Notes under the pieces: model-generated
Database searches by the model: none
What the model saw: only the letters and a program-made list of their open reading frames with translations
Told to the model about the DNA's origin: nothing
Made by a program: the position numbers and the translations under genes
In this document: piece by piece, positions 9,815-30,267 of the stretch
Numbering within the stretch: the first letter of the stretch is position 1
How the letters are laid out: every line of letters starts with the position of its first letter
Source of the DNA: Sinohyriopsis cumingii
Taxonomy: Eukaryota; Mollusca; Bivalvia; Unionida; Unionidae
DNA: 64,000 nt
Direction of reading: 5' to 3'
NCBI GenBank assembly: GCA_028554795.2
Contig: CM068826.1
Span: 101,124,346-101,188,345, forward strand

Positions 9815-10188
9815 AGTAGTGAATAGGGTCACTTTAGCCTCAATGGGAATTAGCATTACAGACCCCCCTTGGGTCGTTTTAGCCTCAATGGAAATTTAAC
9901 ATGGAGAAAAATCGTGGGTCGTTTTAGCCTCAAGGGGAATTTAACATGGGAAATAGTCTTGGGTCACTTTAGCCTCAAGGGGAATTGAACATGAAGAAAA
10001 ACCCTGGGTCACTTTAGCCTCAAGGGGAATTGAACATGGGGGAATAAAGTGTGGGTCTATTTAGGGACAAGGGGGAATTGAACATGGGACTTTTTTTTTT
10101 TTAAATTTTTTTAAAAAAGGGGTAGGCAATTGAAAAGTCATTCTCTTTTCGAGAAATATGGGTGGCCCTGAAAAGGGCCTTTGGGTTT
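9815..10188 (+). repeat. Left terminal inverted repeat of element C
   Basis: It mirrors 29888-30267 almost base for base. The outer 280 bp or so consist of about six degenerate copies of a 40-50 bp unit built around CTTTAGCCTCAAGGGGAATT, followed by an A/T homopolymer tract. Its inner end holds a histone-like stem-loop that reads on the minus strand. Confidence 0.96.
10164..10179 (-). terminator. Histone-type 3' stem-loop no. 1 (inside left repeat)
   Basis: On the minus strand the sequence is GGCCCTTTTCAGGGCC followed by ACCCA. This is a 6-bp stem with a TTTC loop and the flank typical of replication-dependent histone mRNAs. A purine-rich GAAAAGAG stretch follows, in the place of a histone downstream element. 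It begins about 25 nt after the stop of the minus-strand gene at 10204-10434. Confidence 0.85.
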
Positions 10189-10203
10189 ATGTTAATGTAT
10201 CCA

Positions 10204-10434
10204 TTAACATAAAGGGCATCTGCGGCATCTTCTTGTCCTCAAGCTGCGTCTTACTCGAGGGCCATAAATCAGTGTCCTCTTGAGGCAACCTTGTCTTTCT
10301 ACATACACTCTTCGTATCCACAGACTGGTGTCTGACTTGTCGACAACGGTCCACTTGGACCGGACATACATGAGCATGTCCGTCCTAAACATCATGGAAG
10401 ACACAAGGGTGGATGATTCGACTGTGGTCCACAT
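10204..10434 (-). CDS. Small basic protein at the left end of element C (unknown function)
   Basis: This is a 76-residue arginine-rich protein ending RRSLRTRRCRRCPLC. It has no recognised domain; the basic, Cys-containing tail could bind nucleic acid. Coding is supported by context. A TATA box (TATAAATA on the minus strand, 10479-10486) lies about 45 bp before the ATG. A perfect histone-type stem-loop begins about 25 nt after the stop, the spacing seen in histone mRNAs. It faces away from the gene starting at 10654, so the two share one bidirectional control region. It lies just inside the terminal repeat. Similarity to any known protein was not recognised, so that it is expressed is inference. 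Confidence 0.55.
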   Translation of the reverse strand: MWTTVESSTLVSSMMFRTDMLMYVRSKWTVVDKSDTSLWIRRVYVERQGCLKRTLIYGPRVRRSLRTRRCRRCPLC

Positions 10435-10478
10435 CTTGAAGCGACGAGAACAGGTGAATCAATGCAGTGAACTGCGCT

Positions 10479-10486
10479 TATTTATA
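10479..10486 (-). promoter_or_regulatory. TATA box for the left-end minus-strand gene
   Basis: TATAAATA on the minus strand, about 45 bp upstream of the ATG at 10434. Confidence 0.65.
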
Positions 10487-10519
10487 GGTAGAGGAAGGAT
10501 TGAAACGGATTGAGTTCAT

Positions 10520-10606
10520 TCACCAATCCGAACACGCGTTACAAAATTCAGTCAGCTCGCATCCAATCCGAAGAGAGCAGTCTGTGACGTCACGTGGTCT
10601 ATATAG
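10520..10606 (+). promoter_or_regulatory. Bidirectional control region with CCAAT, CRE/E-box and TATA motifs
   Basis: Two CCAATCCG motifs (about 10523 and 10563) precede a perfect cyclic-AMP response palindrome TGACGTCA (10585-10592). That overlaps an E-box CACGTG (10591-10596), and TATATAG follows at 10600-10606. The ATG of the plus-strand gene is at 10654, giving normal TATA-to-start spacing. The same interval separates the divergent minus-strand gene. Confidence 0.65.
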
Positions 10607-10653
10607 ATTCGTTAGCGCTTGTGTGCAGTCAATCTATGCGACAGTGATTCAAC

Positions 10654-11227
10654 ATGACGGAAACTCAGAAAACGATCCATTGGGGTGCACCAGCAGGGGA
10701 GACTGCCCAAGGGAACCCGGACTTACTTTCAGAAGAGGTGAATTGGGATTTTGTGGATTTTCTTACCTCGCAAGAATTTGTTCCGGAACCTTCGTTACCT
10801 TCTTCATTACCGCAAGTGGAGAATTTTAGACAGAGACAGAAAGAAAGAATTGGAGAAATTTATACAACGACAAAAGGAAGCGGAACAAGCTTTTCTCCTA
10901 CAGCAGCAGCAAGAAGAAGAGGTAAGAAAAAAACAACAGCAACAACAGCAAGAAGAAGTATCAGCAAAGAAACAAGAGGGTGAAAATCAAACGGTCACGG
11001 TACTGTTGGACATTTTAGCGGAGTTAAGAAGTCTGAAACAAATGTATCAGACTTCTTTATTACGACCGAAGAGAATAAGACCTTCCCGAGCTAAACACGT
11101 TAACCCTGTGACTAAGCCTGTCGTACCACCCTTAGTGATTTCAACCCAATCATCATCAACATTACGCAGTCCAGAAGTAGGCCTTGGCCGTGGCAAAGGC
11201 TTAAGGCAGTTAAAGTTGATTGCTTAA
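10654..11227 (+). pseudogene. Glutamine-rich coiled-coil protein gene of element C (broken)
   Basis: The region encodes an acidic front (GNPDLLSEEVNWDFVDFL), then a long Lys/Glu/Gln-rich coiled coil with poly-Gln runs. A leucine-containing helix (TVLLDILAELRSLKQMYQ) and a basic, proline-rich tail follow. The family is not recognised; the layout suggests an oligomerising protein. It has its own TATA box and ends 22 nt before a perfect histone-type stem-loop. It is the second of five terminal genes with that signal. It converges on the zinc-knuckle gene at 11520-11966. It is among the broken genes counted for the element. Confidence 0.6.
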
Positions 11228-11249
11228 ACTCACCCCTACACCAAAAAAA

Positions 11250-11265
11250 GGCCCTTTTCAGGGCC
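11250..11265 (+). terminator. Histone-type 3' stem-loop no. 2
   Basis: GGCCCTTTTCAGGGCC followed by ACCCA, preceded by an A-run and followed by a CGAAAAGAGAT purine stretch. It lies 22 nt after the preceding stop. It is identical in the stem to copies 1 and 5. Confidence 0.85.
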
Positions 11266-11429
11266 ACCCACATTTCTCGAAAAGAGATAGCCTTTCAATT
11301 TGCCAATAACTCAAAAAAAATAATAAACAGCCCATTTTACCCCATATAGTACGTGTCTGTGTATGAGTGCGTGAGTGTACGTTCTTATTTTAAAATCAAA
11401 ACTCAAAGACACTTACCTTATATAATTAA

Positions 11430-11435
11430 TTTATT
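11430..11435 (-). terminator. Poly(A) signal for the zinc-knuckle gene
   Basis: AATAAA on the minus strand about 85 nt past the stop of the 11520-11966 gene. This gene therefore seems to use ordinary polyadenylation, unlike its convergent neighbour. Confidence 0.55.
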
Positions 11436-11519
11436 CTTTTATCCATTGTTACAATCCAATTCACAATTCACATCATAACACTTTAAAAAAAAGTTCATTG
11501 ACTTCTTCTTCCTCCTTAT

Positions 11520-11966
11520 TTAGTCTCTCTGTTTTTTAAATTTCTTCACCGTCACAGGCTTTTCCTCTTCTTCCTCCTCACTTTCTTCCCTTCTTCTTTT
11601 CTTCTCCTGTTTCTTTTTCTTCACCTGTCTGTTTTCTTCCTCTGAAAAATCCCTCTCTTCTTCTGAAGAATTCCTCTTTTCTTCTGACTCCTCTTGTTTC
11701 TTTTTTGGGCAATCTGGAGACCAATGTCCTTTTTCTTTACAATAATAACAGGTATCTTGACTTTTGTCTTTTTTAGCCCCTTTTTTTCTTTTTTGACGGT
11801 CTGGACACTCTGAAGACCAATGCCCTTTCTTCTGACAGATATAGCAAGTATCTTGACTTTTATCTCGAAAGGAAGGAGAGTAGTCCGTGGGCTGGTCTGA
11901 AGAGAATTTTCTAATGACCCCTCGCAAAGCTCTGATGAAACGTTCGATTTGGCTAGTCTCTTCCAT
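11520..11966 (-). CDS. Two-zinc-knuckle (CCHC) nucleic-acid-binding protein of element C
   Basis: A 148-residue protein has two CCHC knuckles, CYICQKKGHWSSEC and CYYCKEKGHWSPDC, separated by a basic linker. An alternating acidic/basic low-complexity tail ends KKFKKQRD. Such knuckles bind single-stranded nucleic acid in retroviral Gag and in CNBP-like proteins. They are not part of the Polinton core set. The start at 11966 (MEETSQIERF) is preferred over the upstream ATG at 12014, because the TATA box at 12021-12029 would place the transcription start near 11995. It is divergent from PolB, with the two TATA boxes only 17 bp apart. It may chaperone or package DNA or RNA; this is inference. Confidence 0.75.
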   Translation of the reverse strand: MEETSQIERFIRALRGVIRKFSSDQPTDYSPSFRDKSQDTCYICQKKGHWSSECPDRQKRKKGAKKDKSQDTCYYCKEKGHWSPDCPKKKQEESEEKRNSSEEERDFSEEENRQVKKKKQEKKRRREESEEEEEEKPVTVKKFKKQRD

Positions 11967-12020
11967 CGTTGTGCTCGGCTTGAGAGTGAAATGAATAGTG
12001 AAAGGACAAGACACACACCC

Positions 12021-12053
12021 TTTTATATACGCTGGTCTGCCATGACTATAAAT
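12021..12053. promoter_or_regulatory. Divergent TATA pair for the zinc-knuckle and PolB genes
   Basis: GTATATAAAA on the minus strand (12021-12030) serves the zinc-knuckle gene. TATAAAT on the plus strand (12047-12053) lies 48-54 bp before the PolB ATG. They form a compact back-to-back promoter. Confidence 0.65.
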
Positions 12054-12100
12054 TAGTCTATGGTGTTTAAACTTGAGTCATTTGACGTTTTGCACTCAAG

Positions 12101-15100
12101 ATGAAACGATCCTATTCATTTGAGAAGAAAGAAGAAGAAAGTAAGAGGCAGAAACGTGATCTATCGCCTCGTACCAGAGCTGAAATCTTGGCACAAATTC
12201 ATGCCAGTGATTTTGAAGAGGACATGAGTGAACCAGAATTTGAAACCTCTAAACCAAGTTCACCACCCCTAGTCAACCCTGAAAAATACTATTCCATTCG
12301 AGAGACGGAAAAGCGCTCCTCTAGAAAATTTAGAACCACGGCTTACAAATACACGGTGAAGTTTAAAGATTTCAAGGCTGAAGTGCCGTTGGAGAGAGCA
12401 GAAGTGTTTATCACTGGGGTGTGGGATTCTTTGCTCACTGCACTCAAGCGACAATGTCAACCCAAAGAAGACGATCGCTTGAGACTTTCCATACAACACG
12501 ACGGTTTGAAATCCCCTGTTTGGATCGAGTTTAGCACCCCTGCAGAATTGACCGCTTCCAAAGTCATGGACAAGATTCAACACATACAACAATCTAATCA
12601 CCAGTTTGACATCACCGATGGAAAAGCCACACTGGACATGACCCACGTATCTCCTCCTCAAGGGACTGGACGCAGAAAGATGTTATTGGTGGACGACCTT
12701 CGCATCACCAAAAAGAGTCTCGTCCAAATTAACAACCCTCAGGACCAGATGTGTTTAGCCCGTGCCATCGTGGTGGGACGAACCTATGCCAACAAGAACG
12801 ATACGGAAGAATGGAAAAGACCCTGGAAAACTATTCGACAATCGGACCGAGCCAAACAACGAAACGAAGCAGAACTCCTGTTGCAACAAGCTGGCCTGTC
12901 CAAAGACACACCCTGTGGCATTCCTGAGATGAAAAAATTGCAAGATGCCCTAGCTCCACGATACACCTTGAAAGTGCACCCTCAAGAAGTGCGCGGACCT
13001 CTGTTGTTTCGAGGCCAAGACTTTAAGGACGGAAAATACATTCATGTTTATTATCACGATGACCATTTCGATACCATTACCACTATCACTGGATTCCTGG
13101 GATATATTTATTATTGTGAGAAATGTGACCGTGGTTATAATAATCGAGAGCAACACAAACATTGTGGAATGAAATGCCCAGGATGTTTGGCCTCTCCACC
13201 CTGTCTGAGCGAAGGACCAGTGCCTTGTTCAACTTGTCTGCGCACGTTTGTCAGCCCTACCTGTTACCAACAACATTTGAAAACACAAAGTTCACAGAAG
13301 AAATGTGCTTGTCAACTCCTGAGATTGTGCCCTACCTGTGGACAAGGCATATGTACCAATGCTGCCAAGGCACACGTATGTCGAGGAAAGAAAAAATGTC
13401 ACATTTGTCACCACATCGTGGACTTGGAACACCAATGCTACGTGCAAAAATACCAACCCCCACTAGAGAAAGAGGACGGTCACAAGAAGAAATGCAATTT
13501 CATCTTTTTCGATTTCGAATGCATGCAAGAGACTGGCATTCACATTCCTAATTTCTGCGTGGCTCATCGAGCGTGCGAGAAGTGCATTCAAGAACCTATC
13601 TTCAGTCATTGCCCTCACTGCAGCAAGATTCCTGGAGGGCGTGAAAAAATCTTTCGGGGACCGAACACGTTAGCCGATTTTGCACAATGGGTCTTAGACC
13701 CCATCGACAAGACGTGGAGCCAAGAGGACATCGAACGTTACGGAGATTGTCATCGTCATGCCATGGTGATGGCTCACAATTTCTCCGGATACGATGGACA
13801 GTTTCTTTTGAGATACTATACGGAACAAGGCACCGAGCGTCCTAAAGTGACTTTGAACGGAGCCAAAATCATTTTCATGCAAGTGGGACAAGTACAGTTT
13901 AAAGATTCGATGAGCTATTTGGCCATGCCTTTGAGTCGAATGCCTAAAACGTTTGCAATGACAGAAATGGCTAAAGGGTACTTTCCACACTTTTTCAATA
14001 CGGAAGCCAATCAACACGCCGTTCTACCCCATTTACCTGAGGCTCACTATTACGACCCCGACAACATGCGTACCGAACAACAAGAAGCTTTCTACGCTTG
14101 GTACCAGGCTCACGCCTCGGACCCTTTCGACTTTCAGGAAGAAATGCTAAAGTATTGTCGTTCCGACGTGGACATTTTACGGCGTTGCTGTGGAAAATTT
14201 CGAGAACTGTTCATGGAACACGGAGGGGTCGATCCTTTGAAAGAAGCTTGCACCATTGCCAAAGCGTGTTCCTTAGTGTATCGACAACGATTCATGCCTG
14301 AAAACACCGTGGCTGTCATCAGCCCTCAAACGACCCACTTTGTCAAACGTCAATACTCGGTCAAAGCCCTACGTTGGTTACATTACTTGTGCGACAAGGA
14401 AGACAAGTGGATTCAGCATGCCCGCAACGGAGGGGGTGAAAAGACCATCGGAACGTATTCGGTCGATGGCTGGGACTTAGAAAACCCCAAGATCGTGTAC
14501 GAGTTTAACGGTTGCTTATTTCACGGATGTCCCGTCTGTTACCCTGACCGTAGCACTAAAAATCAGTTTTTACAACGAACCATGGAAGACTTGTACCAGG
14601 ACACATGTCAGCGGCGTCTAAAGTTGGAACAGGAAGGATACCAAGTGGTGGAAATGTGGGAACACGAGTACGATCACCGTATGAAAACCGATCCCGAGTT
14701 TAAATGTCTCGTGGAAAGTTACCAGTTCATGGACCCGCTGAACCCGAGGGATAGTTTGTACGGAGGAAGGACCAATGCCACCTGTTTGCTGTACCAAGCC
14801 GACGAAGAGAAAGGAGAAGAAATCAAATACTTGGACGTGTGTTCGCTGTATCCCTACGTGTGCAAATATTGTCGCTTTCCTGTAGGGCACCCACAATTGC
14901 TGACGGAACACATCGACCTGAAAAACATTCGACAATACGAAGGCTTGATCAAGTGTAAAGTTTTGCCTCCCACGAACCTATACCATCCCGTCTTACCTCA
15001 CCATTGTCAAGGCAAACTGATGTTTCCATTGTGCCGTACTTGTGCCGAAACGTGCAACAAAGACCAGCCTTGCCATCACACCCAGGAAGAACGTGCCTTG

Positions 15101-16127
15101 ACGGGAACCTGGGTCAGCGTAGAATTGTTCAAAGCTCTGGACATGGGATACCAACTGTTAGAAGTGTACGAAATTTGCCACTTTCCCAAGACACAACAAT
15201 ACCACAAGGGTGATCCCAGTCAGAAAGGCATTTTCGCCGACTACGTGGATGCCTTTTTGAAACTGAAACAAGAAGCCAGCGGCTATCCGTCCTGGTGTCA
15301 CACTCCCGAAGACTAAATACAATTCAATGAGAAATACTATGAACAAGAAGGCATCACTTTAGACCACGAAGGCAGGCGATCGTTTGCCAAAAGTGATGTT
15401 AAATTGCTTGTGGAGTAAAATGGCACAACGACCGTGTTTACCCAAGACGGAATATTTGACAGAACCTTTCCGCTACTTCCAGATGATTCACGACAAAACC
15501 AAATACATGAAACACGTGGACGTCGTTCGCGAGGATTTGATCTTGGTCAATTACGAAGAAGATCTGGACTTTGTACAAGACGACCCTTTTGGAAATGTCA
15601 TCATTGCGGCTTACGTGACAGCTCATGCTCGCTTAAAATTGTACGAAGCTTTAGAACTGTTAGGGGAACGCGTCCTGTACTTTGACACGGACAGCTGCAT
15701 TTACATCCATCACCCGAGTCAACAGCACCCTGACATCGAAGGAGACCGTTTAGGAGCCTGGACAGACGAGCATCCCGACGACAAGATTCTAAGTTTCGTC
15801 AGTGGCGGTCCCAAAAATTACGGCTACGAATACCGGGACAAACAAGGAGAAGTGCACACGACGTGCAAAGTGAAAGGACTGACTCTGAATTATCGTACCA
15901 GTCGAGTGGTCAACTTTGGGGTATTGAAAGAAGCCTTGCAATCCGGAGAGGATGGAAACTTTAAAGTGACCACCTATCAACCCAACAAGATTGTACGTTT
16001 ACCCACTCATCACATCGTCAGTCGGCCCTTGGAAAAAGTCTATCAAATCGTGTACCAGAAGCGAGTTCGACTTCCCAATCATTTCACCTTACCGTATGGA
16101 CACGTTGGTATAAAACATTGGTTGTAA
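12101..16127 (+). pseudogene. POLB: Protein-primed family B DNA polymerase of element C (broken)
   Basis: This would replicate the element by protein priming. A charged N-terminus and a region resembling other Polinton polymerases precede a Cys/His cluster at about residues 340-440 (CEKCDRGYNN, CPTCGQGICTN, CHICHHIVDLEHQC). Exonuclease I FFDFECM is near 470, exonuclease II HNFSGYDGQF near 558 and exonuclease III YCRSDVDIL near 685. Palm motif A SLYPYVCKY is near 915, and motif C FDTDSCIYIH is in the last part. All catalytic landmarks are visible. The zinc-finger front is the arrangement seen in alpha-adintovirus-type polymerases. The next gene's TATA box (TATAAAA, 16109-16115) lies inside its tail. 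It is one of the broken genes counted for the element. Confidence 0.95.
16109..16115 (+). promoter_or_regulatory. TATA box for the first BIR gene
   Basis: TATAAAA inside the end of the PolB region, 36-42 bp before the ATG at 16151. Confidence 0.6.
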
Positions 16128-16150
16128 GAGGATAGTCACACGCTAGAAGG

Positions 16151-16609
16151 ATGACTTCGCCACAGCAAGAATCGAGTGAGAAACCCGATGAGAACTCCAA
16201 GTTCAAACCCTACCATTTTCCAGTCTTCTTACCTGACTATTGTGATTGTGCCCGTCGATTGGACACGTTTCAGAAATGGCCTACGGATAGGGAAGGATTA
16301 CCTTCTTCGCATGTTTTAGCTAGAACAGGATTTGTCTACTTGGGACCTGAGTCAGGATTGGGATACGAGGTACAGTGTTTCGCTTGCGGACTGAAGTTAC
16401 GAATGGATCTTTGTATCTATAAAGATTCAGCTATTCTGGAACATACTCGATGGTCTCCGCACTGCCCTTACCTTTATATGGCCTTTCCGCCCATCACACT
16501 ACGGTACAATGTTGACGGTACCTTAGAGACGGTACCTTCCAGAACAAGACATAAAAAACATAAAAAAGGAAAGATGTACAAGCTGGAGACTGCATTGCGA
16601 CTAGTATAA
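16151..16609 (+). CDS. BIR-domain protein 1 (IAP-like) of element C
   Basis: A 152-residue protein has a single BIR domain. RRLDTFQKWP is the entry helix, then LARTGFVYLG, the zinc ligands CFACG at about residues 76-79, and EHTRWSPHCPYL supplying the His and last Cys near 97-105. BIR domains bind caspases or IAP-binding-motif proteins, and virus IAPs block apoptosis. There is no RING, and a basic tail (RHKKHKKGKMYK) follows the domain. The inserts differ from canonical cellular BIRs, so caspase binding is not assured. Its stop codon TAA forms part of the TATA box (TATAAAAA, 16605-16612) of the next BIR gene. Confidence 0.85.
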   Translation: MTSPQQESSEKPDENSKFKPYHFPVFLPDYCDCARRLDTFQKWPTDREGLPSSHVLARTGFVYLGPESGLGYEVQCFACGLKLRMDLCIYKDSAILEHTRWSPHCPYLYMAFPPITLRYNVDGTLETVPSRTRHKKHKKGKMYKLETALRLV

Positions 16610-16612
16610 AAA
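16605..16612 (+). promoter_or_regulatory. TATA box overlapping the stop codon of BIR gene 1
   Basis: TATAAAAA followed by GGGGG. The TAA at 16607-16609 is the upstream gene's stop. The next ATG is at 16661, about 50 bp on. Confidence 0.65.
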
Positions 16613-16660
16613 GGGGGCTATGGTCAAGATCATTGTGACTACCAAGACCGAGCGAACAAG

Positions 16661-17299
16661 ATGAATACTTTCAGAGAAACACAGAACAAGTTGTTTAGAA
16701 AGGCACAATTCAAGTGTGAGGCTTCGGAAGTGGAATGCGATTGTGAGCCTTGCGATGGGTACGATGCTGAACGTTGTGACCTTAGCGATGCCGTAAAGCA
16801 TCATGGGAACTTTGTTCTCACTGCCCCTATCATGGAAAGTGATGCTGTGCGTGTCAAACCTGAGGGATGCGAAAGTGATGCCGCTCGTCCTCTTGGACAT
16901 TTTACTGGGATTCGTTTTAAAGGGGAATGTTCACCTTCACGTCTACCCCCCTACGGATGTCATCCAGCCCTGAGCAAACTCCTGTCCATGTCACCCAACC
17001 CTCATCGAAACGAACCTGTGAAAGACGAATATTCGTTCCCTGTGCGTTTGTCGGAATACTGCAACTTTGAAAATCGTCTTCAATCGTTCAAAGGAAAATG
17101 GCCTAAGTATCTACGAGGACCGACCCCCGAAGAATTAGCCAGAGCTGGATTTTTCTACTTGGGCGAAGGAGATAAAGTCAAGTGCTTCAGTTGCGGTGTG
17201 TCACTTCATTACTGGGAACCGCAAGATTCGGCCTACGTAGAACATGCTCGATGGTCACCGAATTGTCATTACTTACCCTTAGTGGGACCAAGACATTGA
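16661..17299 (+). CDS. BIR-domain protein 2 (IAP-like) of element C
   Basis: A 212-residue protein has a C-terminal BIR domain: ENRLQSFKGKWP, LARAGFFYLGEGDKVKCFSCG near residues 155-178, and YVEHARWSPNCHYLPL near 192-206. The zinc ligands C-x2-C, H and C are all present. This domain is closer to cellular IAPs than that of BIR protein 1. The first 120 residues are cysteine- and acid-rich (CEASEVECDCEPC) and unassigned. No RING is seen. Two adjacent BIR genes suggest duplication with divergence. A role in suppressing host cell death is inferred from the family. Confidence 0.87.
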   Translation: MNTFRETQNKLFRKAQFKCEASEVECDCEPCDGYDAERCDLSDAVKHHGNFVLTAPIMESDAVRVKPEGCESDAARPLGHFTGIRFKGECSPSRLPPYGCHPALSKLLSMSPNPHRNEPVKDEYSFPVRLSEYCNFENRLQSFKGKWPKYLRGPTPEELARAGFFYLGEGDKVKCFSCGVSLHYWEPQDSAYVEHARWSPNCHYLPLVGPRH

Positions 17300-17323
17300 A
17301 GTAACTTACCATATAATCTGTTC

Positions 17324-17779
17324 ATGGATACTTTACAAGAGAACATTCGTGCTTTGCCTGTGGAGTTGAGAGAACGCATTTACCGAGAGCTGGTCAAAAT
17401 ACAAGTGAAACGTAAAGAACAATTGCATCCGTTACGTCACCGGTGTTTGAACCACTGGTACCTTCAGGCTATACAAGGACTGATTGAGTTGAAAGTGTTC
17501 CATTGGACAGACATTGATCAACGACCCCCTGGTTTTAGAAAGGAATGGTTTGGTGTTGACGATTCTATCTACTACATTGTAAACGTACTGCATCGAATTC
17601 CAGAGGAAGAGTTAACCAATTACCAACATCTCGAACACAATGTCAACTTGGTGAAAGAGGAAACTTCTGAACGAATTGTAACATGTAAATTAGTAACTAA
17701 ACGATTTAGATTCGACAATGAATTGAAACCATGTCTGTGCAAACAGTACATGTCTTGTGTCAGACCAAAGAGGATTTAG
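17324..17779 (+). CDS. F-box-like N-terminal protein, copy 1
   Basis: A 151-residue protein opens with NIRALPVELRERIYRELVKI, which resembles the LPxELRxxIY core of F-box domains. A His/Trp-containing helical region with no clear repeat follows. If it is an F-box, it would recruit host SKP1-cullin ligase; this is inference from a short motif. The first 40 or so codons are nearly identical to copy 2 starting at 17792, and the C-terminal parts diverge but share the pattern VKEETSE/AEEETSK. The two genes are tandem, 12 bp apart. Confidence 0.65.
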   Translation: MDTLQENIRALPVELRERIYRELVKIQVKRKEQLHPLRHRCLNHWYLQAIQGLIELKVFHWTDIDQRPPGFRKEWFGVDDSIYYIVNVLHRIPEEELTNYQHLEHNVNLVKEETSERIVTCKLVTKRFRFDNELKPCLCKQYMSCVRPKRI

Positions 17780-17791
17780 CATGACCTATTC

Positions 17792-18311
17792 ATGGATACT
17801 TTACAAGAGAACATTCGTGCTTTGCCTCTGGAGTTGAGAGAACGCATTTACCGAGAGCTGGTCAAAATACAAGTCAAACGTAAAGAACAGTTGCATCCGT
17901 TACGTCACCAGATCTTTAACCACTGGTACCTGAATGGTATAAGAGAACTGATTCGTCAGAAATTGTTTCAGTGGTCAGACCTTGTTCAATACTTCCAAGC
18001 CCCCGATGATCCACGTGTTGATCATTTTTGGTTACTTCGAGATTCACCTAGTACAACACATTGAGGAAGACAAGGTAAAGGATTACAGACATATTTTACG
18101 TGGAATCTACTTAGCGGAAGAGGAAACTTCTAAACAAAGTCTGACGTTTCGGTTACAGTATGCAACATTTAGATTCCCTACTGGAGAACGAAGATGTCTG
18201 GCTAGAAAGTACGTGTATTGTTTCCGAAACAAAGAGACTATAAAAACAGGCTGCCATGCCACGACTTTTATCGCATGTAATCCAACAGATTCCGTGGAAG
18301 GAACTCAATGA
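17792..18311 (+). pseudogene. F-box-like N-terminal protein, copy 2 (broken)
   Basis: This is a tandem paralogue of the gene at 17324-17779, starting with the same MDTLQENIRALPLELRERIY opening. Similarity runs to the ends of both genes, through an EEETSKQSLTFRLQYATFRF segment. The nearly unchanged 5' part and more divergent 3' part suggest recent duplication or gene conversion of the front. It is one of the broken genes counted for the element. Confidence 0.6.
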
Positions 18312-18982
18312 CCATATTCAAACCGTGGATCATTACCATCGATTATTACAAGAGCTGTATCCATTCAATTTGGGACGACAAGTGGTGTGTGTCTTAGTGA
18401 CTTGTTTTCTGGGATTTCGTTTACTAGCCGATTCCTTGTGGACTCTTTACGATCAGTACTTACCACCCTCAATGGCCTTAAATGGTCACGAAAAACTCCT
18501 TTTGCTCAAAGCCTTGCGGTTTCATCTGGATACTTCTCGACCTCTACGGGAAAAAAAGATTCGTCAACTTTTAGCTACCCAAGACGTGTATGACAATGTG
18601 TGTGTAGCTTGTGACTTACATCCCCATTGGACAGATGTCCGTGCCTGGAAAGAATGGGATTTTGAGGCTTGGACCCAAGAAGTGGCCCAGTATGCACGAC
18701 AGTTGTTCAAGGAAAAAAGTTACTTTTCAACCCGTGTTAGTGACGGTGCCAGAAGAACCCGTCACCCAGGACGGGACTGTCGTGGACAGGCCTGAAAGAC
18801 CCTTTCGGGAGGACACTTGTGTGACCTTACCCCCTACTATAGAACTGGTTAGAACATTACCCAAAACATGTTGTTGTACAGACACTTGTGTTTATTCCAC
18901 GTTAATGGTTATCATGTGCCTTTTATCCTTGTACTTAAGCCTTTGGCTTTTATGTATTTTTGTCTTTCGTATTCATGTTTGA
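18256..18982 (+). pseudogene. Possible tail-anchored membrane protein of element C (broken)
   Basis: The region encodes a helical body (QVVCVLVTCFLGFRLLADSL, LLLLKALRFHLDTSRPLREK, then DVYDNVCVACDLHPHW) and an acidic/proline linker. It ends in a strongly hydrophobic segment (STLMVIMCLLSLYLSLWLLC). A C-terminal anchor on a helical body next to IAP-like genes recalls Bcl-2-type proteins. However, no BH1 NWGR-like motif is visible, so that reading is not supported. A poly(A) signal at 18990-18995 follows. It is one of the broken genes counted for the element. Confidence 0.55.
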
Positions 18983-18989
18983 AACATTC

Positions 18990-18995
18990 AATAAA
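18990..18995 (+). terminator. Poly(A) signal AATAAA
   Basis: AATAAA directly after the possible tail-anchored gene and only 15 bp before the TATA box of the ATPase gene. Confidence 0.55.
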
Positions 18996-19010
18996 CGTGT
19001 TCTGAAAAAG

Positions 19011-19018
19011 TATATAAA
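19011..19018 (+). promoter_or_regulatory. TATA box for the packaging ATPase gene
   Basis: TATATAAA, 47-54 bp before the ATG at 19065. Confidence 0.7.
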
Positions 19019-19064
19019 CTCTTGTCTTGTTTGTTTTCGTGTCACAAGTGACATTTCTCACACT

Positions 19065-19793
19065 ATGGCTACCTCTGCTGTCTCTGCTCCCTCTTCCTCT
19101 ACTGTCAAAGTCATCGACGAACACTTAGATCGTGCCAGTTGGGAGGCTTTGTATCCTCGCCATCCCTTTAACATGCTCATTGCTGGACCTAGCGGTTCAG
19201 GCAAAACCGAATTCGTCAAACGTTTGATCGAACATAAACATCATTTGATCGATCGGCCACCTCAGCGGATCGTGTGGTGTTACAAAGAGTGGCAATCGGC
19301 GTACAGCCTCTTGCGAGAAAGTCAAGGCGATTCCATCGTGTTTGTGGAAGGCATTCCTAAAGAAGACGACGGCATCGTCTCTGACTCCCGTCAAACCCAT
19401 TTGGTCATTTTCGACGACATGTTAGGAGAAGACGAAGAAGAAATTAAACTGTGGTTCACGCGCAAAGGGCATCACCGTAATGCCAGTGTCGTTTACATCA
19501 CCCAAAATTTGTATCAATTAAATAAAGCCCATCGCACCATCAGTCTCAATGCGCATTACGTGGTCTTGTTTAAAAGCCCTCGAGATAAATCGCAAGTGCA
19601 AGTCTTAGCCAAACGGTTAGGAATGCCTTGGCTAACTCAGGCGTACGACGATGCCACTCAAACACCACACGCATATTTACTCGTCGATTTGAAACCTACA
19701 ACCCCCGAGGATTTGCGATTTCGTACCCACTTGTTTCACCACTGGTGCCAAGACGGAGGGCCTGTCCTGTACACGTCTCCGTCCTCGACTTAA
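19065..19793 (+). CDS. ATP: FtsK/HerA-type DNA packaging ATPase of element C
   Basis: A 242-residue ATPase of the A32-like packaging family pumps DNA into capsids in Polintons, adintoviruses and NCLDVs. Walker A GPSGSGKT is at residues 41-48 and Walker B LVIFDDML at 113-120. A sensor-like YITQNLYQLNKAHRTI motif follows. The ATG at 19065 is preferred to the upstream frame extension, because a TATA box lies at 19011-19018 and the extension overlaps the preceding gene. The frame is intact. The next gene has its own TATA box (TATAAAAA, 19815-19822). Confidence 0.95.
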   Translation: MATSAVSAPSSSTVKVIDEHLDRASWEALYPRHPFNMLIAGPSGSGKTEFVKRLIEHKHHLIDRPPQRIVWCYKEWQSAYSLLRESQGDSIVFVEGIPKEDDGIVSDSRQTHLVIFDDMLGEDEEEIKLWFTRKGHHRNASVVYITQNLYQLNKAHRTISLNAHYVVLFKSPRDKSQVQVLAKRLGMPWLTQAYDDATQTPHAYLLVDLKPTTPEDLRFRTHLFHHWCQDGGPVLYTSPSST

Positions 19794-19814
19794 TTTCACT
19801 CCACATAAAAAATC

Positions 19815-21262: not shown

Positions 21263-21306
21263 CCTTCGGAAGTCCCAAGATCTCAGAATCGACCCCTGAC
21301 AACCCA

Positions 21307-21951: not shown

Positions 21952-21971
21952 CACACCAATCAACACAAAAA

Positions 21972-21977
21972 AATAAA
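21972..21977 (+). terminator. Poly(A) signal AATAAA
   Basis: Twenty bases after the stop at 21951 and immediately before the integrase ATG at 21980. Confidence 0.45.
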
Positions 21978-21979
21978 AA

Positions 21980-23076
21980 ATGGAAAAAGTCTTAGCCGGC
22001 ATTTACTACGATCCCTCGCATCCTGCAGGTTACGCAGGAGTTCAAAAATTGTATCGTGCTGCCAAAACGCGACTGAAAAGTCTCCGTTTACCTCAAGTGC
22101 AACGATGGTTACAAGAACAAGCTACCTACACTTTACACAAACCCATTCGACGCAAGTTTGCCAGAAGTCGCACCCGAGTGGAAGGCATTGATCATGAATG
22201 GCAAGCCGATTTAGCCGATGTCTCTCATTTGGCCAGCTATAATCGTGGCTACAAATATTTGTTCTGTGTCATCGACGTCTTTTCCAAATTTGCCTGGGTC
22301 GTGCCCTTGACTTCCAAATCGAGCAGCGAGTTAGTGCGAGCCCTGCAACGGGTTTTGAAACAAAGTGGTCGTCACCCTCTTCGATGGCAAACGGACAAAG
22401 GCACCGAATTTCTGAACCAAGCTTTCCAAAAAGAATTAAAGAAACGTGACATTCATTTTTTTACCACCGAGAATCCCGAAACCAAAGCCAGCATCGTGGA
22501 ACGTTTTCAACGCACTTTGAAAGAACGCATGTGGAAATATTTTACGCATCACCACACTCTGAAGTACATCGACATCTTACCGCGTACAACCAATCTTACC
22601 ATCGAAGCATCGGACGTGCCCCGCAAGACGTGACTCCCGACAACGAAGTGTTGGTGTTTGAGCGCCTGTTTGGTACGTCCCCGACGAGGGCTGTCCCCAA
22701 GAAAAGTGGAGAGTTGGCCCTAGGAGATTGGGTGTGCATTGGCAAAACCAAACGCACTTTTGACAAAGGTTACTTACCTAACTGGACGACCGAATTGTTT
22801 CGCGTCACTGGACGAGTGCATGGTCGTCATCCTGCCGTCTATAAATTGGAAGACATGAACGGAGAAGTTCTCAAAGGAACGTTTTATTTGCCCGAGTTAC
22901 AACGTGTCACCAAAAAAGAAGACGACGTGTACGACATCGAAAGCATTCTCGAACGCAGAACCCGTAAAGTGGGCAAACGACGTGTCAAAGAAGTCAAAGT
23001 ACGTTGGAAAGGATATCCACCCAGTTTTGATTCTTGGATCGACGCTTCGCAAGTCATCGACTATAAAAAGAAGTGA
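21980..23076 (+). pseudogene. INT: Retroviral-type integrase with C-terminal chromodomain (broken)
   Basis: This is the element's integrase. A helical front leads to a DDE core: WQADLADVSHLASYN has the first Asp, WQTDKGTEFLNQ the second, and SIVERFQRTLKERMW carries the Glu. A beta-rich part follows (LGDWVCIGKTKRTFDKGYLP). The end is a chromodomain (YDIESILERRTRKVG, VKVRWKGYPPSFDSWIDAS). Chromodomains on integrases can steer insertion to methylated-histone chromatin, as in chromoviral LTR elements. Integration in 6-bp-duplicating fashion matches the ATCGTT flanks. It is one of the broken genes counted for the element. Confidence 0.95.
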
Positions 23077-23081
23077 CCATC

Positions 23082-24454: not shown

Positions 24455-24457
24455 ATC

Positions 24458-24874
24458 ATGTATCCAGTGTACCGAGGGGTTGCACGACAGCGAGGACACG
24501 GTTTAGGAGATATGTTAAAATCGGCCTTTCGTTCGGTGGCCCCGGTGTTGAAACCGATGGTGACACGCGGATTGCACGCCTTGAAAGATGCGGCACTGAC
24601 GCAAGGCAAAGAATTTCTCCAAAATGTCATCATCGACAAACAAAACCCTAAAGAAGCCTTCATGAGGGCAGGCAAAAATGTCTTGCTGCAAACAGGCAAA
24701 GACCTTTTGGGCCGACGAGACACACCTATAAATGTCCTGCACGCTACCGAGTCAGGCATTCAGCAAGGACAAGGCGGAAAGAGACGACGAAGAAAACACC
24801 CTTTCACCAGACTTCAAGCGAGAAAGATCAAGAAAAGAAGAACCGTTCGAGACTTAGACGTTTTCGATTATTGA
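24458..24874 (+). CDS. pX/pVI-like minor virion protein
   Basis: A 138-residue basic protein opens MYPVYRGVARQRGHGLGDML, then SAFRSVAPVLKPMVTRGLHA, an amphipathic helix, and ends in an Arg/Lys-rich tail (GGKRRRRKHPF, KIKKRRTVRD). The GxGxGDxL...FRxVAP pattern is a hallmark of pX-like proteins in Polintons and of adenovirus minor core or membrane-lytic proteins. It lies between the penton and major capsid genes, the standard order. Element B has a decayed relative at 6180-6640. Confidence 0.83.
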   Translation: MYPVYRGVARQRGHGLGDMLKSAFRSVAPVLKPMVTRGLHALKDAALTQGKEFLQNVIIDKQNPKEAFMRAGKNVLLQTGKDLLGRRDTPINVLHATESGIQQGQGGKRRRRKHPFTRLQARKIKKRRTVRDLDVFDY

Positions 24875-24888
24875 GACACAGAAAAAAA

Positions 24889-26202: not shown

Positions 26203-26207
26203 AAACC

Positions 26208-26711
26208 ATGGAAGACTGTTATCCCTCTTTACCTAGTGGAGAAACTTTGGAGATGGAATGTGAGGAGACCGTGGAAGAAGAATCCCAAGACAAAGACGAA
26301 GAAGATATCATGATGAAGTCGAGATGGCCAGAACAAGAAGCCCATTTAGTCTGCTGTTTTGCCAAACACTTGGTCGAAAAAATGACGGAATTGATCAAGA
26401 AAGATTGCTATGGCTGTCAAAACGATCATCCCAGTCAAATTCAACACGACACATGCCTGATGTTGAGTCAAGAAGAAAAATTGGACGAGTATCTGGACGA
26501 GGCTTGGAGTCTCATCTCGGACGAAGACGTGTTGCACCAGTGGTATAAAGACTTGCGTGAACATTCTTGTCCACCATTAACCACTCAAGAGATCGATCGC
26601 ATCGAAGCTGTCCTGAATCAAAGTGAGGAGACGAAACGAAGAAACGGTTATTTGTCAGACATTTTCAAGCAAAAAGTCAGGATCGAATTGACGACTTATT
26701 ATTACCTGTGA
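26208..26711 (+). CDS. Conserved Polinton Cys/His protein (unknown function)
   Basis: A 167-residue acidic protein has a central CYGCQNDHPSQIQHDTCLML segment, whose Cys and His spacing suggests a zinc site. This CxGCxxDHPSQxQH signature recurs in Polinton-like elements, but I know of no assigned role. An acidic N-terminus precedes it and a helical C-terminus (KQKVRIELTTYYYL) ends it. It lies six bases after the capsid gene and 23 before the protease. The frame is intact. Confidence 0.75.
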   Translation: MEDCYPSLPSGETLEMECEETVEEESQDKDEEDIMMKSRWPEQEAHLVCCFAKHLVEKMTELIKKDCYGCQNDHPSQIQHDTCLMLSQEEKLDEYLDEAWSLISDEDVLHQWYKDLREHSCPPLTTQEIDRIEAVLNQSEETKRRNGYLSDIFKQKVRIELTTYYYL

Positions 26712-26733
26712 AGAAGAAAAAAACAACACACAA

Positions 26734-27294
26734 ATGGATACCTGGGAACTTTATTACCTTTTGAACCACAGTTCGTATACGGCTTCTTGGAATCCTGTCG
26801 TCTGTGCTAAAGATGAACTCCCTCATCGCAAACCTAAAGACCATCTAGTTTACGTGATCAACACGGACGACAGTCATCTCCCAGGAACCCACTGGGTAGC
26901 CGTCTACTTTCCTCAAGAAGGATGTGTGGAATATTTCGATTCGTACGGATTGCCCCCTTTGGAAGACGATATCATCGACTTTATGAGAAGAAATGCTCAA
27001 ACCACCCGATTCAATAATGTGAAATTACAAGGCACAGATTCCTTGGTGTGTGGACAGTACTGTGTGTATTTTCTGCATCATCGCAGCCTGGGCTATTCCT
27101 TAGAACATTTAGTGACTCATTTTGATCCTCGTTCTTCTTCTAGAAACGATGTGAAAGTAGATCGATGGTTTTGTGACCATTATGCTTATCTTTTGTCTCA
27201 AGCTAGGAAACGTAGTGTCCATCAATGGCCTAATGATTTCCAACAGTGGAAATCACAATTTCATTCACAACGTTGTCAGCCCTGTTTAAAGTAG
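26734..27294 (+). CDS. PRO: Adenain-type (C5) maturation cysteine protease
   Basis: This 186-residue protease cleaves capsid and core precursors. The catalytic His is in GTHWVAVY (His53). The acidic partner is in EYFDSYGLPP (Asp69 or Glu66). Gln99 and the nucleophile Cys106 are in LQGTDSLVCGQYC, matching the Q...C spacing of adenain. The length is usual for the family and the frame is intact. Likely substrates in the element are the Gly-Gly-containing pX/PX-like proteins, which is inference. The AATAAA at 27413-27418 is a likely poly(A) signal. Confidence 0.95.
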   Translation: MDTWELYYLLNHSSYTASWNPVVCAKDELPHRKPKDHLVYVINTDDSHLPGTHWVAVYFPQEGCVEYFDSYGLPPLEDDIIDFMRRNAQTTRFNNVKLQGTDSLVCGQYCVYFLHHRSLGYSLEHLVTHFDPRSSSRNDVKVDRWFCDHYAYLLSQARKRSVHQWPNDFQQWKSQFHSQRCQPCLK

Positions 27295-27546
27295 AGTGTG
27301 AATTGAGAAAAATGTTTGTCATTTTTTTGAAGAAAAAAATGTTTGATGTTATCATGTTGGATTATTGTTAAAAATGTTAGAGTTGTTGTTGGTTAGTGTT
27401 AAGTGATTTTTGAATAAAAAAATGTTGTGTTTTAAAAAAAATGCCTTTGTCTTTTGTTTAGCTATAAGAATGTTTGATTGATGCTCTTTAATTTCTTACT
27501 ATCCCTCTCATGACACTCATTGAACGTTGCGACTCGAAATCCGTGT
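27295..27546 (+). other. 3' region of protease gene with poly(A) signal
   Basis: A T/G-rich spacer contains several near copies of AAAAATGTTTG and an AATAAA at 27413-27418. No gene is seen. Confidence 0.55.
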
Positions 27547-27576
27547 GGGGGATGTTTTCCTTCACGTCCGCGCTTT
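27547..27576 (+). promoter_or_regulatory. Right-end promoter block, copy 1
   Basis: The block reads GGGGGATGTTTTC, two variable bases, then TCACGTCCGCGCTTT. The same block precedes the genes at 28525 and 29287. The ATG of the first gene lies about 65 bp further on, after an initiator-like CAGTCTAACC. Here the TATA position holds only a weak CTTTAAG. Confidence 0.7.
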
Positions 27577-27641
27577 GACTTTAAGAACCGGGGTTGTTTC
27601 CAGTCTAACCATCCATTGTCGACTCATCCTCCTACGAAGAT

Positions 27642-28011
27642 GTGCTCCAAACTAGCTACGCTCAACGAAGCCTACGTGAATTTGCATAGGGTCAGACACA
27701 GTCTGATACCGAAGCCAGAAGAGATAGAGAATGTGAGAATGTTAAAAGTCACTGAAGACCTGATAGAAGAGCTCTTCAGAGAAGAAGTGAACAGGGAGAA
27801 AGAAGAATGGACAGAGAAGTACAGACTTCAAAGACAACAGCAGCAGCAGCAGCAACAGCAACAACAACAACAGCAGCAGCAGCAACCTGAAGCTGACGGA
27901 GGCTTTGTCGATTGTCGTATCGACACCAAAGAGTTCTTCTTCTCTTTCCGAAGAAGCAGACCTATTGCCAGAAAGTCTATCCTCAGAGGACATCGCATTC
28001 TTAGAAACTAA
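27642..28011 (+). CDS. Right-end gene 1: poly-glutamine helical protein
   Basis: A 122-residue protein starts MCSKLATLNEAYVNLHRVRH. A charged helix (EELFREEVNREKEEWTEKYR) leads into about 18 Gln, and a Phe/Arg-containing tail (TKEFFFSFRRSRPIARKS) ends it. The start at 27642 is preferred because the shared promoter block lies at 27547-27576; frames starting upstream overlap it. The stop is 32 nt before a histone-type stem-loop. The helix resembles part of the 29287 gene product (EEVKKIKEKW), suggesting distant paralogy. Function is unknown. Confidence 0.65.
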
Positions 28012-28043
28012 AAAAGATTGCCATAGCAAAAAAACAAAAAAAA

Positions 28044-28059
28044 AGCCCTTTTCAGGGCT
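28044..28059 (+). terminator. Histone-type 3' stem-loop no. 3 (A-U base pair variant)
   Basis: AGCCCTTTTCAGGGCT followed by GCCCA, then CTCAAGAAAAGAAAT as a purine-rich downstream stretch. The first stem pair is A-T instead of G-C, changed on both sides, so the stem is kept. Confidence 0.75.
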
Positions 28060-28064
28060 GCCCA

Positions 28065-28428
28065 ATACTCAAGAAAAGAAATAACCATCAATTTGCCAAT
28101 GTGTGTAGGTAGAGTAGTGTGAATATAAACACTAACAATTTTTTAAAAAAATGTGAGGGTATGTGTTTGTGTATAAGATTGTGTGTTTGTAAGTGCTCAC
28201 GTACGTTGGTGTGGATAGTAGATTAAAATGATGTCTTTTTTGGTGTTTGAGGTGTAGATTTGAGGTTAGATTGGATTGCTTTGCGTATGTGAATAGTCTA
28301 TTGAAGTGATTAATGAAAATTTTTTACAATAGTAATGGGTAGCATAAAAAGTGAGTGAGTGTTTCTTTTAGGTCCGCGCGTTGTTTTTTTTTGGTCATGA
28401 TCTAGGTAAGATCAATTTTATGTTTTTA
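28065..28428 (+). other. Spacer of the first right-end cassette
   Basis: A G/T-rich spacer of about 360 bp is repeated in form at 28883-29195. Shared pieces include GTAGGTAGAGTAGTGTGAAT, a GTGTTTGTAA stretch, ATAGTAGATTA and GGTCATGATCTAGGTAA. It holds a partial promoter-block copy (GGTCCGCGCGTTG, about 28371). Confidence 0.65.
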
Positions 28429-28469
28429 GGGGGATGTTTTCCATCACGTCCGCGCTTTCAGTATAAATT
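28429..28469 (+). promoter_or_regulatory. Right-end promoter block, copy 2, with TATA box
   Basis: GGGGGATGTTTTC then TCACGTCCGCGCTTT (28429-28458), followed at once by TATAAATT (28462-28469). The ATG is at 28525. Confidence 0.75.
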
Positions 28470-28524
28470 GAAACTCGCTCGGCAGTCTAGCTACCCTTGT
28501 TGATTGATCAACACCACCAGAAGA

Positions 28525-28770
28525 ATGAACACCAGAATTGTGAAACTGCTAGAACTCCAGATGCACCTGGAATATGCCAGGCGCATAGTAAATGAACTAT
28601 CCGCGGAAGCCATAGTAGTAGAGGCAAGAATAAAGAAGGAAGAGGAGGAGAGAAGAGAGAGGGAAGAGGAGGAAAAGAAAATAGGAGAGAGGATGACTTA
28701 CAAGATACCAGAGAGGATTGGGGTGCTGAAGCCAATCATCCCGCCTCTGCACTCCCAAGAAGAAAGGTGA
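28525..28770 (+). CDS. Right-end gene 2: short coiled-coil protein
   Basis: An 81-residue protein begins MNTRIVKLLELQMHLEYARR. A strongly charged Lys/Glu/Arg coiled coil (RIKKEEEERREREEEEKKIG) follows, and a proline-containing tail ends SQEER. The ATG at 28525 is preferred, since the frame upstream has only a TTG. It has the shared promoter block and TATA box. A histone-type stem-loop lies 91 nt after the stop, the longest such distance of the five. Family unknown. Confidence 0.65.
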   Translation: MNTRIVKLLELQMHLEYARRIVNELSAEAIVVEARIKKEEEERREREEEEKKIGERMTYKIPERIGVLKPIIPPLHSQEER

Positions 28771-28861
28771 AAGGAGACTGGGGAAGAAGATGTGTGTGTG
28801 GCGCCAGGCCAGGAAGGTGCCATCATTAAATAGGTGCATCTGGAGTTCAAAAAAAACCAAC

Positions 28862-28877
28862 AGCCCTTTTCAGGGCT
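28862..28877 (+). terminator. Histone-type 3' stem-loop no. 4 (A-U base pair variant)
   Basis: AGCCCTTTTCAGGGCT followed by ACCCA and a CTAGAAAAGAAAT purine stretch. It has the same paired base change as copy 3. Confidence 0.78.
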
Positions 28878-29125
28878 ACCCAATACCCTAGAAAAGAAAT
28901 AACTATCAATTTGCCAACGTGTGTGTGTGTGTGTGTAGGTAGAGTAGTGTGAATATAAACACTAACTCTTTTTTCATAGTGTGAGTGTATGTGTGTTTGT
29001 GTTTGTGTTTGTGTTTGTAACTGCTCGCGTAAGTTTGTGTGAATAGTAGATTATGGGTTTATTTATTGTTTCTTAGCGTATGTGGAGAGTATAGTCTGGG
29101 TTTTATTATACGAAATGAGAAAATA

Positions 29126-29235
29126 GGGGGATGTTTTCATTCACGTCCGCGCGTTGTTTTGGTCATGATCTAGGTAATATCAATTTTATGTCTTAGGGGG
29201 ATGTTTTCAATCACGTCCGCGCTTTAAGTATAAAA
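29126..29235 (+). promoter_or_regulatory. Right-end promoter blocks, copies 3 and 4, with TATA box
   Basis: Two copies of the block occur in tandem (29126-29154 and 29196-29225). They are separated by a GGTCATGATCTAGGTAA stretch that is also found before copy 2. TATAAAAC follows at 29229-29236 and the ATG is at 29287. Confidence 0.75.
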
Positions 29236-29286
29236 CTAACAGTGCTTGCCATTGGAGCCCATTCTACGGAATAAGCAAACAAGAAG

Positions 29287-29877
29287 ATGCCAGCAGCTTC
29301 AGCTTTGTACAACAACCTTATGGGAAGTTGGTATTGGATGGTGGATGGATTGAATGTAGCAGAAAGGCTTGAACAGGAATGGAGGCATGCAGTGACAAAA
29401 GACTTCGTCTCAAGACAAGTAATCAGCCTCCACTTAGCCATCGATATTGTAAAAGAAATGATAGAGGATGAGGAGAAGAGAATCAGAGGTTTAATTAACC
29501 CACCGTATGTGAAAGTGGGTAAGTTGAAAGAAGCGATAGTTTATGTGACGAGTGTAAGGTGTTTTTTAGAAGACATTCTAGAATGGACAGATTGGTCTTT
29601 TGTGAAGTGGGGCTTAGACAAGCTTAAGAAAGCCGAAGAAGTAATGAGAAATGTGCTGACCGAAGAGGTCAAGAAGATCAAAGAAAAGTGGTCAAAGGAA
29701 AGAAAAGAAGAAGAAAATAGAAAGAAAAAGGAAGAACTAGAGAAACTAAACGCTAACTGGATGAAAATCCAAGAGAAGTTCCGAGCCATGGGTCACCCGG
29801 ACTGGATGCCGGAAACAGAAAAGAAGAAAGGAATGATGGAAAAAATAAGAGGATGGTGGAAGAAGTTAAGGAGTTAG
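29287..29877 (+). CDS. Right-end gene 3: helical protein of unknown function
   Basis: A 196-residue protein has MPAASALYNNLMGSWYWMVD at the front, then several amphipathic helices. A long charged coil follows (EEVKKIKEKWSKERKEEENR) and a basic/Trp end (GMMEKIRGWWKKLRS). It is intact. The promoter is the doubled block plus TATA box. The stop is 19 nt before a perfect histone-type stem-loop that lies in the right terminal repeat. No family is recognised. Similar placement, promoter and 3' end link it to the genes at 27642 and 28525. Confidence 0.7.
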   Translation: MPAASALYNNLMGSWYWMVDGLNVAERLEQEWRHAVTKDFVSRQVISLHLAIDIVKEMIEDEEKRIRGLINPPYVKVGKLKEAIVYVTSVRCFLEDILEWTDWSFVKWGLDKLKKAEEVMRNVLTEEVKKIKEKWSKERKEEENRKKKEELEKLNANWMKIQEKFRAMGHPDWMPETEKKKGMMEKIRGWWKKLRS

Positions 29878-29887
29878 AAGAAGAAGA

Positions 29888-30267
29888 AAACCCAAAGGCC
29901 CTTTTCAGGGCCACCCATATTTCTCGAAAAGAGAATGACTTTTCAATTGCCTACCCCTTTTTTTTAAAAAAAAAATTTTTTAAAACAAAAAATCCCATGT
30001 TCAATTCCCCCTTGTCCCTAAATAGACCCACACTTTATTCCCCCATGTTCAATTCCCCTTGAGGCTAAAGTGACCCAGGGTTTTTCTTCATGTTCAATTC
30101 CCCTTGAGGCTAAAGTGACCCAAGACTATTTCCCATGTTAAATTCCCCTTGAGGCCAAATCGACCCACGATTTTTCTCCATGTTAAATTTCCATTGAGGC
30201 TAAAACGACCCAAGGGGGGTCTGTAATGCTAATTCCCATTGAGGCTAAAGTGACCCTATTCACTACT
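29888..30267 (-). repeat. Right terminal inverted repeat of element C
   Basis: This is the reverse complement of 9815-10188, with about two substitutions plus a different A/T tract. It includes the histone-type stem-loop at its inner edge and the 40-50 bp subrepeats outside it. Confidence 0.96.
29897..29912 (+). terminator. Histone-type 3' stem-loop no. 5 (inside right repeat)
   Basis: GGCCCTTTTCAGGGCC followed by ACCCA and CTCGAAAAGAGAAT. It is preceded by CCCAAA, as in histone mRNAs, and lies 19 nt after the stop of the 29287 gene. Confidence 0.87.

Follow-up and report, generated by a model that had tools for sequence, protein, structure and literature searches.

Histone-type 3′ stem-loops after the terminal genes of a Polinton family in the bivalve Sinohyriopsis cumingii

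The DNA analyzed here is a 64,000-nt stretch of the Sinohyriopsis cumingii genome (assembly GCA_028554795.2, contig CM068826.1; hereafter "the window") and contains a Polinton, element C, with five small genes (tA to tE) toward its ends. Element C resembles known Polintons/Mavericks in having a 6-bp target-site duplication (TSD), terminal inverted repeats (TIRs; about 375 nt long), DNA polymerase B (PolB), an RVE integrase, an A32-like packaging ATPase and a weakly matched adenain-like protease (Table 1). Inside this one Polinton lie five 16-nt hairpins, all matching the Rfam model of the histone 3′ stem-loop (RF00032; curated cut-off of 34 bits), with three of the five passing the cut-off (E 6e-9 to 1.4e-8). 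An initial annotation of the same letters had placed five such hairpins, each with an ACCCA or GCCCA flank and a nearby GAAAAGA, 19 to 91 nt past the stops of five small terminal genes in the sense orientation. All five were recovered by pattern search and by RF00032 (the tA hairpin on the minus strand) with their ACCCA or GCCCA flanks, the GAAAAGA stood 13 nt past the stem at every site, and measured stop-to-hairpin distances were 24, 22, 32, 91 and 19 nt for tA to tE. Covariance scores were above background, and a pattern search of the 64 kb allowing up to two mismatches gave five matches against a shuffle mean of 0.07 (100 shuffles, largest 1). A whole-window scan for perfect six-pair stems with TTTC, TTTT or TTTA loops returned the identical five sites and none besides.

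Within the window, a sense hairpin was found ≤400 nt after the stop in 5 of 25 genes (a selection of open reading frames [ORFs] plus tA, tD and the broken-frame tB), these being the five small terminal ORFs, and in none of the other 20, so that the annotated absence of the hairpin after core genes held. The chance of a random strand-position in element C falling ≤100 nt past a same-strand stop was 0.061. The five sites are not independent, as the tA and tE hairpins are one site duplicated by the TIR (at the inner edges of both repeats) and the tC and tD hairpins both fall within a duplicated stretch. When folded in isolation, 51-nt segments from four of the five sites formed a six-pair stem with a four-base loop. 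A short common tail (CAATTTGCC or CAATTGCC) was also seen ∼29 to 31 nt past the stem end, beyond all five GAAAAGA elements.

Table 1. Coordinates of element C, its genes and its hairpins within the window
Feature	Position	Strand	Description
Polinton element C	9815..30267		20,453 bp; TIRs and 6-bp TSD ATCGTT at 9809-9814 and 30268-30273
Left TIR	9815..10188		inner edge contains tA hairpin
Right TIR	29888..30267		inner edge contains tE hairpin
tA	10204..10434	-	ORF, 76 aa; no Pfam family match
tB	10654..11227	+	frame broken in window copy; open (182-196 aa) in 21/35 anchored copies
tC	27640..28011	+	ORF, 123 aa; anchored copies
tD	28525..28770	+	ORF, 81 aa in window copy, truncated there
tE	29287..29877	+	196 aa; predicted helical bundle, model mean pLDDT (predicted local distance difference test) 79.8
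Hairpin after tA	10164-10179	-	RF00032 40.8 bits; GAAAAGA 10150-10144 (minus strand)
Hairpin after tB	11250-11265	+	RF00032 41.8 bits; GAAAAGA 11279-11285
Hairpin after tC	28044-28059	+	RF00032 23.5 bits, below cut-off; GAAAAGA 28073-28079
Hairpin after tD	28862-28877	+	RF00032 29.9 bits, below cut-off; GAAAAGA 28891-28897
Hairpin after tE	29897-29912	+	RF00032 40.8 bits; GAAAAGA 29926-29932
Promoter-like core CGTCCGCGC before tC	27565..27573	+	repeated at 28447, 29144 and 29214; otherwise without exact copy in window
CCHC zinc-knuckle gene	11520..11966	-	AATAAA downstream, no hairpin; internal control
PolB, core	12101..15316	+	PF03175, E 1e-37
A32-like packaging ATPase, core	18975..19793	+	PF04665, E 2.3e-8
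RVE integrase, core	21980..22633	+	PF00665, E 3.8e-14
Adenain-like protease, core	26734..27294	+	AATAAA past stop, no hairpin; internal control

A search of the host assembly (2.90 Gb) with RF00032 returned at least 75 scored hits from 589,472 first-look candidates, all above the cut-off (a lower bound, with the window's own hits and the two host histone ends read later not among them); one control genome scored below the cut-off. Every locus was fetched, and all 75 carried terminal-gene or TIR matches of this Polinton family. A scanner run on the first 55 loci registered 122 hairpin-plus-purine sites, of which one, differing in sequence, was discarded as chance. Across the remaining 121 sites the loop was TTTC in 120, the downstream element was GAAAAGA (109) or AAAAAGA (12), and it started 13 nt past the stem in 116 and 14 nt past it in 5. 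The first stem pair was G-C in 86 sites, A-T in 29, A-C in 3, G-T in 2 and C-C in 1, where A-T is the tC and tD form, with both sides of the stem changed. In gene-anchored copies the signal was found ≤350 nt after the gene end in most cases (tA 18/22, tB 33/35, tC 14/16, tD 10/11, tE 8/8) and never after the non-terminal genes covered by this test (CCHC 0/12, protease 0/6, and p246, p163 and p167 0/1 each; copies of other core genes were too short). As loci had been fetched for a high RF00032 score, counts are also given with index hits removed (tA 8/12, tB 20/22, tC 14/16, tD 10/11, tE 1/1; index copies missed by the scanner remain in these denominators). Nine scanner-negative copies were inspected by eye, and the place of the hairpin was visible in all of them; in six the hairpin was intact but the downstream element altered or missing, and in three the hairpin itself was altered. 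Sites therefore tracked terminal-gene stops in many copies, and scatter without relation to stops was not seen. The proposed tie to terminal genes was borne out in gene-anchored copies, but it does not extend to every small gene near an end, as the end-proximal CCHC gene has AATAAA and no hairpin.

To compare these sites with the host's own histone genes, the assembly was searched with PF00125, giving 150 scored matches, the majority within ∼8.3-kb tandem repeats, and the 3′ ends of two genes, which we take from their C-termini to be H3 and H2B, were read. Both carried the same signal as the element: RF00032 scores were 35.9 and 38.2 bits, respectively, hairpins started 28 and 34 nt past the stop, and GAAAAGA stood 13 nt after the stem in both. 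Most of the 75 Polinton hits outscored these two histone ends. The hairpins of tA, tB and tE were identical to that of host H2B at 16 of 16 positions and to that of H3 at 15 of 16. The GGCCCT stem differs from the Rfam consensus GGCUCU, indicating that the element shares a host-type variant, and the 13-nt spacing is likewise common to element and host; within those 13 nt, six to nine positions match. With metazoan replication-dependent histone 3′ ends in general the element shares a six-pair stem, a TTTC loop, an ACCCA-type flank, a purine-rich downstream element and a hairpin close to the stop. It differs from them in that its genes have no histone family match and are located in a virus-like mobile element, and in that most tC and tD sites have an A-T first stem pair.

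On the strength of these sequence comparisons, the terminal genes of this Polinton family probably end in working histone-type 3′ signals that are read by host stem-loop binding protein (SLBP) and U7. PMC12774660 describes SLBP as recognizing the histone hairpin and U7 as the pairing partner of the purine-rich element, and PMC5011920 describes histone mRNAs as S-phase linked and without poly(A), with the stem-loop and downstream element as hallmarks of replication-dependent histones. From the likeness of the signals to host and known histone ends we infer the same pathway for the terminal mRNAs, in which SLBP and U7 bind, the transcript is cleaved and left without poly(A), and expression is timed to S phase. 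Under such a mechanism, a small terminal gene would be transcribed by host RNA polymerase II and its hairpin would then be bound by host SLBP, while the U7 small nuclear ribonucleoprotein (snRNP) would pair with the GAAAAGA element 13 nt past the hairpin (GAAAAGAG being the putative pairing stretch). The histone cleavage complex would cut between hairpin and GAAAAGA, yielding a capped mRNA that ends in the hairpin and lacks poly(A). With at least some core genes apparently on ordinary poly(A) signals, the element's genes would be split into two mRNA classes, of which the terminal one would build up during S phase, the period of SLBP activity and histone processing. We lean, if only slightly, toward a broader view in which a DNA virus lineage uses two mRNA 3′-end systems (poly(A) for core genes and the host histone pathway for terminal ones), the histone ends serving as a cell-cycle switch that limits accessory proteins to S-phase cells and perhaps draws the viral genome to histone locus bodies.

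Several observations weigh against working histone-type ends. The tD and tC sites score below the RF00032 cut-off (E 1.7e-4 and 0.041, respectively) and match the two host hairpins at only 13 to 14 of 16 positions, and the host comparison comprises two genes only. The best single-strand fold at tD differs from the hairpin, the tC fold is unremarkable (equalled by 10 of 200 shuffles), and in the tA, tB and tE folds the downstream element pairs with the TTTCTC preceding it. A search of the host for the U7 small nuclear RNA (snRNA) gave no match, though its controls were silent too. All five modules are homologous, so that their repetition is partly duplication, and as the scanner required the downstream element, the presence and low divergence of that element are partly built in; in tA copies the ACCCA flank diverges by 17.5%, equal to its surroundings. 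The contrast to core genes is also limited, in that AATAAA occurs ≤400 nt downstream in only 4 of the 20 hairpin-less window genes (CCHC, a 179-aa ORF, a 214-aa ORF and the protease), leaving the contrast to rest mainly on CCHC and protease. Lastly, 15 of 35 tB copies have AATAAA ≤200 nt after the gene (6 past the hairpin and 9 in an A-rich run just before it), as does the window tB (∼95 nt past the stop, beyond the hairpin), making a poly(A) fallback possible for this gene.

The homology of the five sites might alternatively reflect a single capture of a host histone 3′ end, which duplication, TIR homogenization and transposition then multiplied as a passenger that has no present function. 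All five belong to one homologous module of ∼58 nt, implying fewer independent origins than sites, with tA and tE in the TIRs and tC and tD in the duplicated stretch, and the window frames of tB and tD are broken or short. However, the signal has changed less than most of its surroundings. In scanner-positive, non-index copies, hairpin and downstream element diverged, respectively, by 1.6% and 4.8% at tA, 5.0% and 6.9% at tB, 1.7% and 0% at tC, and 3.6% and 0% at tD, against 9 to 49% for most other stretches around the signal (exceptions being the 5 nt just upstream of the tA hairpin [0%] and the ACCCA flank [3 to 17.5%]); these values cover tA to tD, non-index tE copies being too few, and the choice of rows favors low divergence. 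The spacing from hairpin to element is nearly invariant, and 18 copies of the CCHC or protease gene showed no signal downstream. The gene in front of the right-hand TIR hairpin (slot E) also argues against a passenger. Some copies have a tE-family gene in slot E, whereas eight loci (L003, L007, L008, L022, L024, L026, L027 and L055) have another gene there (∼129 aa where open, MASNHLDKM-type), with the same promoter-like motif before it and the same TIR hairpin after it. That this gene is unrelated to tE was considered and rejected, given a short C-terminal stretch common to both (8/21 identical, E 0.004), and it is graded as different or strongly diverged on account of that stretch. As slot E keeps its hairpin despite holding another gene, the histone-type signal seems to go with the slot rather than with one gene. 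Homologous proteins were also found on public contigs of 0.6 to 2.3 kb (12 for tE and 20 for tB), and 2 of 45 homologues, P0025 (tE family) and P0037 (tB family), extend past the usual stop into the same hairpin. Back-translated, the tails of both match the 21-nt hairpin-plus-flank except at one position, whereas none of 640 shuffled proteins came closer than three mismatches; the evidence from other contigs consists of these two read-through proteins. Retention of the signal in both settings runs counter to a hairpin without present function, which we regard as unlikely.

Dual-mode 3′ ends occur in some histone variant genes, and SLBP could similarly bind the Polinton hairpins for stability or translation while final ends come from ordinary poly(A) signals further downstream. 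The AATAAA motifs lying past the hairpin in 6 of 35 tB copies and in the window tB are in keeping with this, as is the report in PMC6210712 that purine-rich elements lie near only some histone hairpins in the clam Lucina. Against it, the U7-type element holds its 13-nt spacing, which only U7-dependent cleavage should need, and AATAAA is scarce ≤200 nt after the remaining terminal genes (tA 2/22, tC 1/16, tD 0/11, tE 1/8), whereas copies of the protease (5/6) and CCHC (8/12) commonly have it. An ATTAAA was seen ahead of the hairpin in the window tD. We judge such an arrangement improbable and prefer histone-type processing by SLBP and U7. The two sites at TIR inner edges might suggest that the hairpin instead serves the element's own cycle, as DNA or RNA, in TIR replication, packaging or plain termination of transcription, and does no more than resemble a histone end. 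This is very improbable, as three of the five sites have no TIR around them, every hairpin follows a stop in the sense orientation, and the sequence resembles the host's histone ends even in its GGCCCT stem and in the 13 nt separating stem and GAAAAGA.

The genes carrying the putative histone-type ends are themselves unlike histones: no histone family was among the Pfam matches (E 0.05) of tA to tE or of the alternative slot-E gene, weak matches all being below their cut-offs, and the tE model had no match in the PDB at E ≤ 0.001. An ORF of ≥65 aa was present in 15 of 22 anchored tA copies. The codon test was restricted to tA, tB and tC, as by the script's rule frames were open in 0 of 11 copies of tD and 2 of 8 of tE. 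For tA, differences at codon positions 1, 2 and 3 were 0.115, 0.083 and 0.285, respectively, and judging from this third-position excess tA behaves like a real gene; the excess is weaker in tB (0.058 versus 0.037 and 0.037) and tC (0.091 versus 0.053 and 0.040). Among 14 tD sites elsewhere in the family, nine had an ORF of 73 to 150 aa whose end was 25 to 36 nt short of the hairpin; in two the ORF stopped 86 and 96 nt short of it, and in three none of ≥50 aa was seen. BLAST comparison of tC with tD gave nothing, and that of tD with tE gave short matches only (best E 1.1). The divergent intergenic region between tA and tB (10435-10653) contains TGACGTCA and TATA-like boxes and resembles a shared bidirectional promoter.

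As to precedent, the absence of any earlier description for Polintons, supposed in the initial annotation, holds in that no analysis was found, but not entirely: PMC12220804, in its accessible text, counts RF00032 six times across 8,300 genomes of Polinton-like viruses (PLVs), with none in cryptophyte PLVs. These hits resemble ours in placing the RF00032 family inside Polinton-like viruses and differ in that the available text, where RNA classes are listed, gives their number alone and says nothing of positions, genes, functions or any comparison with the host. Apart from that count, no description of histone-type 3′ ends was found in the accessible open-access literature on Polintons, Mavericks and adintoviruses, and titles and abstracts on SLBP with viruses or transposable elements contained nothing of this kind. 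If the proposed processing is correct, the histone 3′ end would be used outside histone genes at the scale of a whole mobile-element family, and this Polinton family would illustrate the coupling of a mobile element to the host S phase while offering natural substrates for work on SLBP and U7. To our knowledge, little is known about the timing of Polinton expression, and histone-type ends might provide a sequence handle on when these elements are expressed. RF00032 hits in animal genomes, moreover, need not be histone genes: the hits scored here, at least 75, were all Polinton.

Among the remaining features of element C, the protease assignment reflects weak matches to PF00770 and PF02902 (both E 0.021, below cut-off), and, among the relatives of PolB, two proteins of Saccostrea echinata are 44% identical. 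A Pfam scan of 20 element C ORFs gave no capsid match; adintoviruses are defined in PMC11071296 by a PolB with an OTU-like N-terminus and a BLAST-recognizable hexon. In a viral contig collection, no relatives of the element C PolB or ATPase and no matches to the 19-nt hairpin pattern were found; PolB alignment to viral contigs gave two loci on one 316-kb contig (31 to 32% identity), which were not used further. The element core also contains two adjoining BIR-domain genes of the inhibitor-of-apoptosis type (16151-17299), followed at 17313-17989 by a 209-nt stretch duplicated across small ORFs (86% identical, starts 468 nt apart), and each TIR includes tandem repeats of 45 nt (9823-10040 and 30042-30259). 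Elsewhere in the window, positions 39047-39115 on the minus strand match the mir-8 family below threshold (28.2 bits versus a cut-off of 47). Among the genomic copies, L052 contains two neighboring Polintons, with ∼1 kb or less between the right end of one and the left end of the other, and the stretches L058 and L059, 9.7 kb apart, look alike in the parts compared, as in a local duplication that takes in a Polinton end.

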